In this document: positions 1-5,546 of the stretch, piece by piece
Numbering within the stretch: position 1 is the stretch's first letter
How the letters are laid out: each line of letters starts with the position of its first letter
Source: Secundilactobacillus kimchicus JCM 15530
GTDB lineage: Bacteria > Bacillota > Bacilli > Lactobacillales > Lactobacillaceae
Direction of reading: 5' to 3'
Length of the DNA stretch: 64,000 bases
Assembly (NCBI RefSeq): GCF_001433995.1
Contig: NZ_AZCX01000002.1
Coordinates: 1-64,000, forward strand
The notes under the pieces: generated by a model
What the model was told of the DNA's origin: nothing
The model's database searches: none
What the model saw: the letters and a program-made list of their open reading frames with translations, nothing else
Program-made: the position numbers and the translations under genes

Positions 1-3000
1 CAGCATTGGCACTTGGCTTACCACTGTTGTTATTGACCTTACCACTGTGGTTCTTGCCAGCACTGCTGACGTTACCACTCTGGTTCCCAATTGCGCTTTG
101 GGCATTACCATTGTTACTGGGTACTGGCCTTGGCATGATTCTTAAGGGTCTTGCTGACTTGCTTAAGTTCGCACTTGGTTCACTGTTTGGCTGGTTATTC
201 CCACTGTTGGTACTCGGTGCCTTGGCACTTGGGTTGCCGCTGTTGCTATTGACCTTGCCACTCTGGATCTTACCTGCAATCTTAACTGCGCCATTCTGGT
301 TGCCAATCCTTCTTGGATTGTTACCATTCTTAGCTGGTGCAATCTTAGCAGCTCTTGCTAAGGGTCTCTTGGATCTATTGAAGTTCGGTCTCGGCGCTAT
401 CTTAGGCTGGCTCTTTGCTCCAATTATTCTGGGTGCCCTGGCACTTGGCTTACCACTATTGTTATTGACCTTGCCATTGTGGCTATTGCCAGCATTGCTG
501 ACATTACCACTCTGGTTGCCACTCTTGCTTGCAGCACTGCCACTGTTGTTAGGCAACTTGTTGGGGGCATTCGCTAAGGGCTTAGCCGATCTTCTTAAGA
601 CCCTCGCTAAATTCCTGTTAGGCGCATTGCTCGGGACCTTATTTGCACCAATTATTCTGGGTGCCTTAACACTTGGTTTGCCACTCATACTACTGACACT
701 CCCACTGTGGATTCTGCCAGCATTGCTGACATTGCCACTCTGGTTACCATTGTTGCTTGCAGCATTACCATTCTTACTTGGTAATCTGTTAGGTGCATTC
801 TTCGGAAATGGATTAGGTCATCTGTTATTTACGGCAGCCTTGTTCTTGCTTGGCTTACCATTGTTTGGCCTTTTACACTTCTTGAGTAAATTGCTGAAGG
901 GGATCTTCCTGTACCCATTGTTGGCACTCTTAGGGACGCTTCTCGGTGGTCCACTTTACTGGCTATTAATGCCACTCTTCATCTTGTTGCACTTGTTGCG
1001 CAAGGGCTTGAAGGACTTGTTGATTGGGGCATTATTATTCCCACTCGGCTTGTTGCTCGGTGGACTTCCATTCTTGCTGAGCTTGTCATTGCTGATTGGT
1101 GGGTTCTTACTCGCCAAGGCAATTGCGGATGCTTTAGCACTTGGTTTAGCTGGCCTCTTGACTGGTTTGCCATTCTTGTTAGCCTTGCCATTGGCCTTCT
1201 TGGGTCACTTACTTGGCTTGCTTGCTCTTGGCCGCTTACTGTTCACTGGTGCCTTGTTCTTACTTGGTTTACCACTGTATGGTTTGCTTCACGCTATTAG
1301 CAAGTTCTTGAAGGGTCTCTTCCTCTATCCATTGCTTGCATTGTTAGGGACGTTACTCTTCGGACCATTGTACTGGCTAGCAATGCCACTCTTGATCCTC
1401 TTGCACCTTCTTCGGAAGGCCATCACAGACGGATTGAAGTTCCTATTGTTCTTGCCACTCGGTCTGTTACTCGGTGGTTTACCATTCTTGTTATCACTAC
1501 CATTCTTAATTGGTGGGTTCCTGTTAACAAAGGCACTCGCTGACTTGATTGGTTTGTTGCCAGCAGCATTGCTTGCAGCACTGCCATTCCTACTTGGTTT
1601 GCCATTAGCATTCCTAGGTAACTTCTTATTAAACAACTTGCTGGGCCACTTACTGTTCACGGCAGCCTTGTTCTTACTCGGCTTACCACTGTTCGGCTTG
1701 TTGCACTTCTTGAGTAAGTTGTTGAAGGGCATCTTCGTTTACCCATTATTGGCATTACTTGGTACGCTTCTCGGCGGCCCACTCTACTGGTTATTAATGC
1801 CACTCTTCATCTTGTTGCACTTGTTGCGCAAGGGGTTGAAGGACATGCTCATTGGGGCATTATTGTTCCCACTTGGCTTGTTGTTCGGTGGATTGCCATT
1901 CTTGCTAAGCTTGCCATTGCTCATCGGTGGGTTCTTACTCGCCAAGGCGATCGCGGATGCTTTAGCCTTCGGTTTAGCTGGTCTCTTGACTGGTTTACCA
2001 TTCCTGTTAGCACTGCCACTGGCCTTCTTGGGTCACACCTTGTTACTCGGGTTGTTGTTGAAGCTTGGGTTATTAGGGAAGAGCCTGCTTGATTTGATCG
2101 GCTTCTTAGCCGCAAATGGATTGGGCGCGCTACTTGGTTTCGCCTTGTTGCCATTGTTGGCACTTGCCTTACCATTACTTCTAGCTGGTTTGCCACTCCT
2201 GTTATTAGCACTGCCACTGCTATTACTTGGCTTACCACTATTAGGCCTTGCATTACCGTTGTTAGCATTACTTGGTTTGCCATTAGCCTTGTTAGCATTA
2301 CCAGTATTGGCCGGGTTAAAACTTGGCTTACTTGGTGGGGTACTCGCTTGGTTGGCCGTTCAATTTGGCAAGTTCTTATTGTCATTGTTACCAGGTTTCA
2401 TCCTTGGAACGCGCTTATTGTCGTTACTTGGACTGGGACTGTTAGCCTTGCCACTGATCTTGTTGCTCGGTTTGCCACTGTTCTTCTTGGCACTGCCACT
2501 CTTACTGTTGGCCTTACCACTCTTGATCGGTCTTGGTTTATTAGCTTCACCATTGCTATCGCTTCTTGGGTTACTTGCATTGCCAATCTTGCTTGGCTTA
2601 GCATTGGGCGGCGTCTTCGGATTGCTAGCTCACTTGTTAGGCGACTTGATTAAGTTCTTACTTGGTTTACCAGTTGGGTTCTTACTTGGTTTTGCTTTGT
2701 TACCATTACTTGGCTTTGGTTTGCTACTCTTACCACTGTTATTACCGTTGTTGCTGTTAGGTTTGCCAATCACTTTGATTGGTGGCTTACTGGCACTTCC
2801 GTTCATTCTGTTAGCACTGCCACTGTTGGGAATTCTTGGTCAATTAGCCTTGCCGTTCGTTTTAGGCTCAGTCCTAGGCGGCTTAGCAGGCTTGATTGCA
2901 TACCTGTTGACTAAGTTGGTTAAAGGGCTGATCAAATTGGCGTTGGCAGCAGCTGTGCTGTTACCATTGCTCGGCTTGCTAGCCTTACCAGTTCTGCTTG

Positions 3001-5546
3001 GATTACCATTCATTGCAGGATTAGTTCTCGGTGGACTGTTACTTGGCAGCTTGCTACTACCACTTCTGTTAGGTAAGTTCTTACTTGACGGGTTGAAGGG
3101 GATTAGCAGATTATTAATCGGTGGATTATTGCTTGGTGCTTTGTTGCTAGGCTTGCCACTATTGCTTCTTGGCTTGGCCGGCTTGATTGGCTTACCATTA
3201 GTCCTTGGTAAAGCCTTAATCGATGGGTTGAAGTTCCTGGGTAAATTACTCTTGGGTGGTTTGCTGTTAGGGCTTGCACTATTGGCCTTGCCACTGATTC
3301 TTCTGGGGTTGGCGACACTCCTTGCCGTACCTGTACTGCTTGGATTGGGCTTACTTCTGTTACCACTAATGCTTGGTAAGTTGTTCTTAGATGGGCTTAA
3401 GTTAGGCTTGTTGCTTGGCTTACCAATCATTCTTGGCTTGTTATTCTTGCTAGCCTTACCACTGCTACTTGGTTTACCATTCTTGGCCGGTCTTGCTCTG
3501 GGTGCATTGCCATTCCTTTTGGGATTACCATTGTTACTCTTAGCCTTGCCGTTGCTGCTTGGCTTACCATTTATTGCAGGAGCCTTGCTTGGATTGTTGC
3601 CACTCGGCTTACTCTCACTCTTAGCCTTGCCGCTTCTCTTAGGGAAGATGTTCTTAGACGGGTTGAAGTTGGGCGTTAAACTGATGTTGCCACTCCTCGC
3701 ATTGCTAGCCTTGCCACTATTAATGGGGTTACCATTTGTAGCTGGTCTTGCCCTTGGTGCATTGCCACTCCTTCTAGGACTGCCATTGTTGGCCTTGGCT
3801 TTACCGTTACTCCTTGGATTACCACTATTAGCTGGATTGTTGTTATTACCACTATTACTGGGTAAGTTGTTCTTAGATGGTCTGAAGTTAGGCCTTCTGA
3901 TGGGCTTGCCAGTCGTTCTTGGCTTATTGTTCCTGTTAGGCTTACCAGTATTACTTGGCTTGCCATTCCTGACTGGTCTTGCTTTTGGTGCATTACCGCT
4001 TCTTGGTCTTGGATTATTAGCTCGGCCAATTCAGATTGCGATTGCCTTGCAATTTGGCTTGCCGCTCTTGGGTGGTCTTGTGCTTGGCGCTTTACCACTA
4101 CTAGCAGGATTGCTGTTATTGCCACTATTACTGGGTAAGTTGTTCTTAGATGGTCTGAAGTTAGGTCTTCTGATAGGCTTGCCAGTCATTCTTGGCTTAC
4201 TGTTCCTGTTAGCCTTACCACTATTGATTGGGTTGCCATTCGTCGCTGGCCTGGCATTGGGTGCGTTGCCAATCCTTCTTGGGTTGCCATTGTTGCTCCT
4301 TGCTTTGCCACTCATCCTTGGCTTACCATTCATTCTGGGGCTGGCTCTTGGCGCGTTGCCATTGCTGTTAGGGCTACCGATCTTATTAGGTCTCTTAGGA
4401 CTGCCAATCTTATTAGGTCTACTAGGTTTACCGTTGCTCCTCTTAGCACTGCCACTGCTCTTGGGCTTGCCACTGTTGTTACTTGGTTTGCCGCTGTTGG
4501 CCTTGCCATCACTGGCACTGCCGCAACTGTTAGGCTTACCACTGTTGTTACTTGGTTTGCCGCTGTTGGCCTTGCCATTACTGGCACTGCCGCAACTGTT
4601 AGGCTTACCATTGTTGTTACTTGGTTTGCCACTGTTGGCTTTACCATTCTTGGCCTTACCACTGTTGTTAGGCTTACCATTGTTGTTGCCACTATTGCCG
4701 TTGTTATTGCTAGGATTACCGTTACTTGGATTTGCCCTTGGCCGTCAAAAGCCACAGCAACCCGATGACAGTATTACGCCAGCAGAACCAACTCCAATTG
4801 TGCCAACGACTCCGGTTAAGCCAGAACGACCGGAAACGCCTGTTCAACCAAGTAACTTCTATCCGTTTGCCGTATATGGCTTGAAGAATATGTACCTGTA
4901 CAGCGATCCAACGTTTAGTAAGAAGAATCGAGTTGCTTCTTACCGCGCTAAACCTCGTGTTTACCGTCCAATGTGGGTAGTTGTTGGGACTGCACGTTCT
5001 AAAGCAGGTCGGCTACGCTTTAAGGTTAAAGACGTGAACCACTTGTCTGCAACCAACGGCAAGACCGGCTACATTACAGCTCGGAAAGACTTTGTTGTGC
5101 CGGTATATTACCAGCAGGTTCATCAGACGGTCACGGTGATTAATCCTCGGGGTGTTAATGCTTATACCCGCAAGAATTTATCCGGGAAAGTCACGAACTA
5201 CAAACAAGGCACAATTTTACATGTTAAGGGGATTGTTCGCCATCACTTGACGACCCGTTACGAACTAACGAACGGCAAGTTTATCACGACGAACAAAAAG
5301 TATGTGATTTATGGCAAACGGACCTTTGTTAAGGCCGTCCGGGCCAAAACTGCTTTGAATCGCTATAACAATGTAAATCTCACAAAGCGTAATAAGCACT
5401 ACGCAAAGAAGCTTCATAAGTTATTCAAAGTTTACCGTTGGGATTATTCTCACGGTAACAGCAACAGGGTCCATGGGACCAAACGTTACCGGATTTCAGG
5501 TGGTTTCATCACCGCTAATCCACGGTACGTGTCTGTTGTTCGTTAG
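1..5546 (+). CDS. Giant Leu/Pro-rich hydrophobic repeat protein with DUF5776-like C-terminal tail (5' partial)
   Basis: The reading frame is open from the window edge for about 1,847 codons and ends at TAG 5544-5546; the true start lies upstream. Residues up to about 1,579 are almost only Leu, Pro, Gly, Ala, Phe and Ile, with motifs such as LGLPLLLL and LPLW. They fall into repeat families of 72-76, 138, roughly 55-90 and 23 codons. Sparse Lys/Asp clusters (KGLADLLK, KGLKDLL, GKLFLDGLK) recur about once per repeat. After a Pro/Thr/Glu linker (about 1,580-1,616) comes a basic, Tyr-rich tail of about 230 residues resembling the DUF5776 segments of lactobacillar surface proteins (YGLKN, KVKDVNH, GKTGYITA, ANPRYV). 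The tail suggests wall or surface attachment. The function of the hydrophobic part is unknown. Copies differ mainly at synonymous sites, so this frame is the translated one. No LPxTG motif is seen. Confidence 0.85.
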   Translation, partial: ALALGLPLLLLTLPLWFLPALLTLPLWFPIALWALPLLLGTGLGMILKGLADLLKFALGSLFGWLFPLLVLGALALGLPLLLLTLPLWILPAILTAPFWLPILLGLLPFLAGAILAALAKGLLDLLKFGLGAILGWLFAPIILGALALGLPLLLLTLPLWLLPALLTLPLWLPLLLAALPLLLGNLLGAFAKGLADLLKTLAKFLLGALLGTLFAPIILGALTLGLPLILLTLPLWILPALLTLPLWLPLLLAALPFLLGNLLGAFFGNGLGHLLFTAALFLLGLPLFGLLHFLSKLLKGIFLYPLLALLGTLLGGPLYWLLMPLFILLHLLRKGLKDLLIGALLFPLGLLLGGLPFLLSLSLLIGGFLLAKAIADALALGLAGLLTGLPFLLALPLAFLGHLLGLLALGRLLFTGALFLLGLPLYGLLHAISKFLKGLFLYPLLALLGTLLFGPLYWLAMPLLILLHLLRKAITDGLKFLLFLPLGLLLGGLPFLLSLPFLIGGFLLTKALADLIGLLPAALLAALPFLLGLPLAFLGNFLLNNLLGHLLFTAALFLLGLPLFGLLHFLSKLLKGIFVYPLLALLGTLLGGPLYWLLMPLFILLHLLRKGLKDMLIGALLFPLGLLFGGLPFLLSLPLLIGGFLLAKAIADALAFGLAGLLTGLPFLLALPLAFLGHTLLLGLLLKLGLLGKSLLDLIGFLAANGLGALLGFALLPLLALALPLLLAGLPLLLLALPLLLLGLPLLGLALPLLALLGLPLALLALPVLAGLKLGLLGGVLAWLAVQFGKFLLSLLPGFILGTRLLSLLGLGLLALPLILLLGLPLFFLALPLLLLALPLLIGLGLLASPLLSLLGLLALPILLGLALGGVFGLLAHLLGDLIKFLLGLPVGFLLGFALLPLLGFGLLLLPLLLPLLLLGLPITLIGGLLALPFILLALPLLGILGQLALPFVLGSVLGGLAGLIAYLLTKLVKGLIKLALAAAVLLPLLGLLALPVLLGLPFIAGLVLGGLLLGSLLLPLLLGKFLLDGLKGISRLLIGGLLLGALLLGLPLLLLGLAGLIGLPLVLGKALIDGLKFLGKLLLGGLLLGLALLALPLILLGLATLLAVPVLLGLGLLLLPLMLGKLFLDGLKLGLLLGLPIILGLLFLLALPLLLGLPFLAGLALGALPFLLGLPLLLLALPLLLGLPFIAGALLGLLPLGLLSLLALPLLLGKMFLDGLKLGVKLMLPLLALLALPLLMGLPFVAGLALGALPLLLGLPLLALALPLLLGLPLLAGLLLLPLLLGKLFLDGLKLGLLMGLPVVLGLLFLLGLPVLLGLPFLTGLAFGALPLLGLGLLARPIQIAIALQFGLPLLGGLVLGALPLLAGLLLLPLLLGKLFLDGLKLGLLIGLPVILGLLFLLALPLLIGLPFVAGLALGALPILLGLPLLLLALPLILGLPFILGLALGALPLLLGLPILLGLLGLPILLGLLGLPLLLLALPLLLGLPLLLLGLPLLALPSLALPQLLGLPLLLLGLPLLALPLLALPQLLGLPLLLLGLPLLALPFLALPLLLGLPLLLPLLPLLLLGLPLLGFALGRQKPQQPDDSITPAEPTPIVPTTPVKPERPETPVQPSNFYPFAVYGLKNMYLYSDPTFSKKNRVASYRAKPRVYRPMWVVVGTARSKAGRLRFKVKDVNHLSATNGKTGYITARKDFVVPVYYQQVHQTVTVINPRGVNAYTRKNLSGKVTNYKQGTILHVKGIVRHHLTTRYELTNGKFITTNKKYVIYGKRTFVKAVRAKTALNRYNNVNLTKRNKHYAKKLHKLFKVYRWDYSHGNSNRVHGTKRYRISGGFITANPRYVSVVR
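8..817 (+). repeat. A-type repeats, 72-76 codon period
   Basis: Four successive copies begin at about 8, 224, 440 and 668, so the period is 216, 216 and 228 nt (72, 72 and 76 codons). Each copy opens with LGLPL-LLTLPLW, continues LPALLTLPLW-P, and in the first three closes with a charged KGL-DLLK element and a GLFAPIILGA-like turn. The fourth copy is cut short where the B-type repeats start. Confidence 0.85.
822..2036 (+). repeat. B-type repeats, exact 138-codon period, three copies
   Basis: Copies start at 822, 1236 and 1650, exactly 414 nt apart. Each contains LLFTAALFLLGLPL, a GPLYWL core, HLLRK with a following KD, and a LAKAIADAL-like element. Copies 1 and 3 are nearly identical in protein. 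In their first 48 codons about 20 codons differ but only one changes the residue (Leu to Val). The third copy loses similarity near 2036. Confidence 0.85.
3050..4370 (+). repeat. C-type repeats with LGK-DGLK element
   Basis: Six copies of the element LLLGK-(F/L)xDGLK occur, with DGLK codons near 3088, 3223, 3391, 3658, 3876 and 4149. They are separated by stretches of GLPLLLLALPLLLGLPF-AGLALGALP. Spacing is irregular, between about 45 and 90 codons, unlike the fixed periods of the A and B types. Confidence 0.75.
4470..4676 (+). repeat. D-type 69-bp (23-codon) tandem array
   Basis: Three direct copies start at 4470, 4539 and 4608. The first two differ at essentially one codon (Ser/Leu); the third has diverged. 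The encoded unit is PLLLLGLPLLALP-LALPQLLGL. The near-identity at DNA level marks this as the most recently expanded part of the gene. Confidence 0.85.

Follow-up and report, generated by a model that had tools for sequence, protein, structure and literature searches.

The question raised by the locus described here is whether a protein of several thousand residues, the bulk of them hydrophobic, is a genuine product of a lactobacillus and, if so, where in the cell such a chain could reside. The locus opens the window, that is, the whole stretch of 64,000 nucleotides analyzed, at positions 1 to 64,000 of contig NZ_AZCX01000002.1 of Secundilactobacillus kimchicus JCM 15530 (G000:C12:1-64000). 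A stop-free frame (window 3-5546, + strand, ended by a TAG at 5544-5546) encodes 1847 amino acids (aa). Its 5′ side is cut by the contig start, so the protein is truncated there; the window encodes at most the C-terminal third of a giant protein, the upstream part of which likely lies on contig C43 of the same genome. The frame is very probably translated, and the reading that we favor, with about even confidence, is that of an exported giant tethered to the cell wall, with its hydrophobic body embedded in the membrane.

Frame, repeats, and tail in the window

The first 1581 residues (window 3..4745, +) form a Leu/Pro-rich hydrophobic body, as judged by composition and frame counts. Leu, Pro, Gly, Ala, and Phe make up 83.9% of residues 1-1580 (46.5% Leu, 13.6% Gly, 9.5% Ala, 8.8% Pro, 5.5% Phe), while Lys/Arg account for 3.2%, Asp/Glu for 1.1%, and Cys is absent; the hydropathy is 1.56-2.2 per 200-residue block in the bodies of both the window and C43. 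The first-pass annotation, made from the letters of the DNA and a list of its frames, had described more than 1,570 hydrophobic residues continuous with a tail, and this is borne out by the single frame of 1847 aa with a body of ~1580. Its statement that Pro recurs every six to eight residues holds for 59 of 138 gaps and does not extend throughout the body.

The body is organized in repeats that are more exact than originally described. Four units of 72-76 residues starting with GLPL(L/I)LLTLPLW (aa 5, 77, 149, and 225; window 15..821, +) are followed by three copies of a 138-residue hydrophobic repeat that align ungapped (aa 274-411, window 822..1235; aa 412-549, window 1236..1649; aa 550-687, window 1650..2063; all +), by a region with six LGK-x-(F/L)-(L/I)-DGLK units (window 3069..4160, +), and by a 69-nt DNA tandem repeat of 3.5 copies in a Leu/Pro-dense stretch (window 4446..4687, +). 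The last is the only one of 11 tandem rows at the DNA level to score above 100. The body is thus not a mere DNA satellite, and it is the protein repeats that are regular.

The sense frame of the body holds no stop and the other five frames hold 12 to 241 each; among 200 dinucleotide-Markov shuffles of the body, stop-free frames reached 343 codons at most. In plain codon counts, which are not a formal dN/dS, copies 1 and 3 of the 138-codon repeat are separated by 40 synonymous and 11 nonsynonymous codon changes in the sense frame (27, 6, and 42 differing sites at codon positions 1, 2, and 3), copies 1 and 2 by 51 and 38, and copies 2 and 3 by 51 and 39, and in each of the five other frames nonsynonymous exceed synonymous changes. 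Six repeat pairings gave the same synonymous excess, some of it weak (e.g., 26 vs 25). Because the sense frame is free of stops and its changes are mostly synonymous, the window frame is very probably translated and its amino acids are very probably under constraint.

We also noticed antisense stop-free stretches in the body (e.g., window 2840-4030, -) of up to 396 aa, rich in Asn, Pro, Gly, and Ser. Long antisense frames opposite a Leu/Pro coding strand of this kind could be mis-annotated as genes.

Beyond a Pro-rich polar linker (window 4746..4862, +, limits by eye), two DUF5776 domains (PF19087) lie in the same frame at window 5106..5306 (+) and 5328..5531 (+), the second just over the Pfam cut-off (27.1 bits vs 27), and the match for the whole window protein has an E of 5.7e-25, in agreement with the DUF5776-like tail seen at first. 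A sorting-like motif of the LPXTG type with hydrophobic stretch and basic tail is absent from this C-terminus. The genome holds 13 DUF5776 matches on 9 contigs, two of them in the giant gene; since other proteins of this genome carry the domain, we read the tail as a common local module, which the giant gene may have adopted.

The missing front and the plan of the family

The Leu/Pro part matches two places in the S. kimchicus genome (G000), contig C12 itself and the end of contig C43. The latter carries an open reading frame (ORF) of 3959 aa (L003:2755-14631), the ATG of which follows the stretch AAAGGAAAGGAAG. Oriented like the window frame, this ORF is cut by the contig end within copies of the window's repeats, its last part being a copy of the 138-residue unit and then the LTLPLW unit that opens the window. 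As these are the window's own repeats, C43 and C12 would most simply be two sides of one gene broken in its repeat array, and the joined protein would have at least 5,806 aa before any residues in the gap are counted. In order, the C43 ORF comprises a signal-peptide-like start, a ~110-residue domain, a Ser/Thr/Gln-rich linker, a ~125-residue domain, and ~3,160 hydrophobic residues. An apparent basic n-region, hydrophobic core, and cleavage-like site were noted by eye at the N-terminus of this frame (L003) and of two others (L061, L040). The upstream start and signal sought by the first-pass annotation would accordingly be those of C43.

A 250-residue query holding the 125-residue domain matched 12 of 397 family genomes, in 6 of 40 genera (E ≤ 0.001); two of the 12 are marginal (G075 and G279, E about 6e-4), and G095 matched at E 1e-11. 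The profile of the 125-residue domain matched 3 of 395 sampled genomes of the order, all 3 within Lactobacillaceae, and that of a ~388-residue hydrophobic module described below matched G000 alone among 378 sampled genomes of the phylum. The Leu/Pro repeat was found in G000 alone (1 of 15 genomes of the genus and 1 of 397 of the family), which makes the Leu/Pro sequence private while the plan is shared. Giant relatives occur in Lentilactobacillus kefiri, L. parakefiri (G292), L. parabuchneri (G188), and L. sunkii (G120), the scan for species names having used patterns from the G000 and Lentilactobacillus sequences only, and in four genomes of a further genus, g4 (G056, G301 with two copies, G360, and G384). 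The search for similar repeat ORFs suggested at the outset found giants in a few Lactobacillaceae, and the Lentilactobacillus, G301, G360, and G384 relatives have tails other than DUF5776.

Our count of ten giant genes leaves out G075, G279, G095, and shorter paralogues (~1,150-1,245 aa). Two of the ten run uninterrupted from stop to stop, with 5894 aa (17.7 kb) in L. parabuchneri DSM 5707 and 8103 aa (24.3 kb) in G301 copy 1. Both show the common plan in a single frame, which in L. parabuchneri extends from a signal-like start to LPQTNE. Three more are, as far as visible, cut by contig ends only (G000, G120, and G056, the last known from a 7-kb contig only). The other five are interrupted, and we return to them below.

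The hydrophobic module has a period of 384-394 residues in G000 and of 387-388 in Lentilactobacillus and G360, with motifs that include NPIAD, NWLNPL, and FPIIGW. Five copies each are present in G000, G143, G188, G292, and G360; G384 has six rows, which we read as five copies with one split by a frame change, and L. sunkii has two copies, at contig ends. No module match was found in G301, G056, or G095. The 12 aligned Lentilactobacillus copies have a mean column identity of 70%, and seven orthologous comparisons between species gave 128-159 synonymous vs 31-94 nonsynonymous codons over 417-418 codons. The module count and length are kept across three genera, which points to a specific structure rather than drift.

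What is exchanged in the family is the anchor. Past the body, the proteins of L. parabuchneri, L. kefiri, and L. sunkii carry LPQTNE and then a hydrophobic stretch and a basic tail. L. parakefiri shares the LPQTNE motif, its end being truncated by a stop, and G301 copy 2 has LPQTG after the body. By eye, a sorting-like motif was seen in G188, G143, G120, G292, and G301 copy 2. Curated LPXTG models stayed below cut-off (NF053819 at E 6e-4 to 0.02 in four of four tails, PF00746 at E 0.07 in one of four). The peptide VGFWVHNDPL is shared by G301 copy 1, G360, and G384, at or close to their ends, and in G301 copy 2 it precedes LPQTG. With tails of DUF5776, LPQT(N/G), or VGFWVHNDPL, the family appears to exchange anchors and to keep its plan. 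A sortase (PF04203) scored over cut-off in nine of nine genomes searched, G000 included. The surface location first proposed gains support because sorting-like LPQTN/LPQTG motifs stand at the same end of the homologues and a sortase is present in all nine genomes; export and anchoring of the giant are suggested by these signals.

Searches with head, module, repeat, and tail against Pfam, NCBIfam, and PHROGs (four stretches in the case of PHROGs) returned DUF5776 only, plus the sub-threshold LPXTG models for the relatives' tails. For head and body no family model matched at E ≤ 0.001, the best head matches being one at E 0.031 and an insect TPR model at E 0.0027, both below cut-off. Sequence and profile searches of the PDB with the head alignments, the module, and the body gave no significant match, so that the initial statement that no family of this composition was known can be kept: nothing in Pfam, NCBIfam, PHROGs, or the PDB explains the body. 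The 125-residue head domain, the ~388-residue module, and the 138-residue unit are sequence families for which no model was found in Pfam or NCBIfam. Among the best 60 of 109 PDB hits of the 125-residue domain, nearly all were calmodulin chains (E 0.06-0.35 over ~30 residues), which were taken as chance and rejected; the faint, nonsignificant resemblance lies at profile positions 78-107, with a best E of 0.059.

Membrane, wall, or relic

In the reading that we favor, the N-terminus would be exported, with its small ~110-residue domain, Ser/Thr/Gln-rich linker, and 125-residue domain, and the C-terminus would lie outside as well, held at the wall by the SH3b-like DUF5776 here and, in a number of relatives, by sortase motifs. 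Between these ends, the chain of thousands of hydrophobic residues would enter the cytoplasmic membrane during export and lie there as short re-entrant hairpins and Pro-kinked helices, the latter more than 100 in number. Such a chain would amount to a polymer embedded in the membrane, with one end riveted to the wall and the other presenting an adhesin-like head. Sec normally lets hydrophobic segments out sideways into lipid, and it is because it would release such segments there that an embedded body is favored. The uncharged runs of at least 12 residues, with medians of 24-44 residues in seven bodies vs 22 in controls, are long enough to span or enter a membrane.

The placement of the body was assessed with a simple, home-made topology model, in which positive-inside scores are set against those of loop-shuffled copies. 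It decoded 47-48 hydrophobic segments in the window, 93 in C43, 114 in L. parabuchneri, 167-174 in G301 copy 1, and 186-201 in copy 2, and an initial run gave small positive-inside scores. As controls, 16 ordinary membrane proteins were gathered from these loci, three were dropped as apparent antisense shadows of giant genes (by eye), and the 13 kept scored 34.7 vs 17.2 ± 3.0 for loop shuffles (20 shuffles).

Several observations weigh against this reading. All seven giant bodies scored within 1.3 standard deviations of their own shuffles (8 or 20 each). If the controls' excess is scaled per Lys/Arg (our own arithmetic), an excess of ~11 to 22 is expected for L. parabuchneri and the two G301 bodies, and -2.7, 2.1, and -1.4 were seen. 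The 27 uncharged runs of the window have a median of 44 residues and 89% of them reach at least 30, longer than one membrane pass, and helices of 52-71 residues in AlphaFold2 models exceed membrane thickness, although two of the three longest module helices lie mostly in low-confidence parts. Furthermore, five of ten giant genes are interrupted and the product may therefore be dispensable. For the window (51 Lys/Arg), C43, G360, and G056 the positive-inside test says little because no more than ~2 to 4 units of scaled excess are expected; raw scores per Lys/Arg are 0.124 for C43 and 0.095 for G056, near the 0.131 of the controls, and the shuffles of these two bodies lie likewise near. The single-repeat predictions proposed at first were run and gave all-helical models: for the module (12 copies) the predicted local distance difference test (pLDDT) was 64 and the predicted template modeling score (pTM) 0.60, and for two window units (two rows) 66 and 0.24. 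Such models, helices only, lack the confidence needed to decide the fold.

The topology test tells against an ordinary polytopic protein and leaves room for the alternative that the whole chain, body included, is exported and forms a hydrophobic coat or matrix on the wall. Such a coat could help cells to aggregate, to adhere to surfaces that are fatty or waxy, or to form grains. We consider this alternative unlikely, if still to be taken seriously. Both ends look extracellular by their signals, a positive-inside bias above shuffles is missing from seven of seven bodies (with real power in the three largest), and the uncharged runs and predicted helices are out of line with membrane thickness. 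Cys is absent from 12 of 13 bodies counted, with a single one in the other, as is common in exported proteins. These points are opposed by the normal behavior of Sec and by the constant length of modules with conserved polar motifs, which suggests a specific fold and not a bulk phase. Between the coat and the membrane polymer envisaged by the first-pass annotation the evidence is divided: composition argues for the membrane, while a simple polytopic protein is hard to square with the bias missing from the largest bodies.

The same observations leave room for a wider proposal, which we put forward tentatively. The giants may represent a new class of cell-envelope polymer, in which chains of ~5,800 to more than 8,000 residues with ~110 to 200 hydrophobic segments and modules of fixed length, held by the wall at one end, follow neither the positive-inside rule nor normal helix lengths. 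Such chains would form a hydrophobic phase made of protein, either in the membrane or outside it, that the export machinery would somehow have to handle.

A conventional, very long polytopic protein, such as a transporter or channel array of ~388-residue modules with the Leu/Pro part as filler, is improbable. It would fit the five conserved modules with their Asn-Pro and Trp motifs and the helical prediction for the module. However, Foldseek with the module model (a modest one) found no PDB match at E ≤ 0.001, no PDB profile and no family in Pfam, NCBIfam, or PHROGs matched, the positive-inside pattern is missing in the largest bodies, and the module itself has no match in G301, G095, or the 7-kb contig of G056.

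We give very little weight to a decaying or nonfunctional repeat gene whose frames are relics, in spite of the five interrupted genes. L. parakefiri has 4455 + 1448 aa around one in-frame TAA, G301 copy 2 has 242 + 8113 aa and G360 (a single-contig genome) 2536 + 3663 aa, each with one in-frame TAA, and G384 has a TAA plus a frame change. In L. kefiri NBRC 15888 the frame stops after 1285 aa and a transposase-like ORF (by eye; L059:5858-6601, +) precedes the remainder. The interruptions may reflect real loss, loss in the laboratory, or errors of sequencing. Of 15 genomes of the genus, the 14 others gave no match to either the Leu/Pro repeat or a head stretch, which fits a relic too. Such a gene would not be expected to keep the synonymous excess seen inside the window (40 vs 11, 51 vs 38, 51 vs 39) and between species (e.g., 142 vs 31 and 142 vs 35 over 418 codons), two frames uninterrupted over 17.7 and 24.3 kb, or the five-module count across three genera. 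Broken frames in homologues, named by the first-pass annotation as evidence against its proposal, do therefore occur in half of the giants, but two of ten are uninterrupted and change is mostly synonymous.

A false frame, such as an Asn/Gly/Pro/Ser-rich antisense reading, or an assembly artefact deserves next to no credence: antisense stop-free stretches of up to 396 aa exist and one antisense register has just 12 stops in the body, but counting stops and synonymous changes in all six frames led us to reject a false frame (no stop vs 12 to 241, and a synonymous excess in the sense frame only), and the same plan was found again in independent genomes.

Known systems and neighboring genes

The closest described counterparts are Giant1-5 of Apilactobacillus kunkeei, which are described as proteins of 3,000-8,000 aa with a signal peptide, long imperfect internal repeats, and a C-terminal DUF5776 called SH3b-like and possibly wall-binding; no transmembrane domains are predicted for Giant1-5, and Giant1-4 have a predicted N-terminal beta-solenoid (PMC12863079). 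Compared by description, the protein discussed here shares the family Lactobacillaceae, thousands of residues, a probable signal peptide at the likely start, repeats, and the C-terminal DUF5776 (two in the window). It differs in a body that is hydrophobic over thousands of residues. Because Giant1-5 are described there as lacking predicted transmembrane domains, membership fails on the body, and the protein may nevertheless work alike as a giant wall-held surface protein. Head alignments gave no significant profile match to the PDB.

Ordinary LPXTG sortase-anchored proteins have hydrophilic stalks. The Lentilactobacillus members and G301 copy 2 resemble them in the signal-like start, Ser/Thr-rich linker, and LPQTN/LPQTG tail, whereas the window protein has DUF5776 instead and the relatives' model matches are below cut-offs. 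With serine-rich repeat proteins the giants share apparent export, a Ser/Thr-rich stretch, and wall anchoring, and the window tail had a weak, nonsignificant PDB hit to Serine-rich repeat protein 2 (4mbr, E 0.035); in the giants, however, the Ser/Thr-rich stretch spans a few hundred residues as a linker, and most of the chain is hydrophobic. Oleosins coat plant lipid droplets and have one uncharged stretch of ~72 residues. By analogy, the giants have long uncharged stretches with central Pro/Gly that could form membrane hairpins.

We found no description of the hydrophobic giant family in the open-licence literature. The known giants among bacterial surface proteins are hydrophilic, and no single membrane protein is known to make more than a few dozen membrane passes. 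A wall-anchored chain with perhaps 110-200 hydrophobic segments would test the limits of export, membrane insertion, topology rules, and protein cost. A role in aggregation, grain formation, tolerance of acid or ethanol, or surface hydrophobicity is conceivable. The named carriers are food-associated lactobacilli, which makes the family easy to study.

An origin from plasmids or phages was rejected, as no tblastn match was obtained with the queries tried: 401 residues of the window's repeats against plasmids and phages, and the G301 head against plasmids.

A paralogue of 1245 aa with the same head lies upstream of the giant gene in G000 (L039:5210-8944, +; G000:C43:87209-90943), with a shorter, less hydrophobic, and more charged C-terminal half. 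Forms of 1146-1243 aa with the head and a hydrophobic end are present in G360, G056, and G384; G301 has a frame of 1189 aa. A protein of ~233-246 aa with a signal-like start is encoded divergently beside the giant gene in G000 (L039:9460-10194, -) and in four Lentilactobacillus species (L. kefiri, L059:272-973, -, and beside the giants of G188, G292, and G120), the similarity being judged by eye. The G000 copy has no significant Pfam or NCBIfam match, and the protein is a candidate partner of the giant.

The two giants of G301 stand head to tail (frames of 8103 and 8113 aa, L040-L042, G301:C23:1649-52397) and occupy ~50 kb, roughly 2% of the genome. In G301 and G360 the giant gene is followed by a regulator of 550 aa (L042:12807-14456, +; L067:6447-8096, -) with a Mga helix-turn-helix domain over the Pfam cut-off, the NCBIfam AcpB/EbpR/MafR model matching below cut-off, and after it come transporter-like and hydrolase-like ORFs, recognized by eye.

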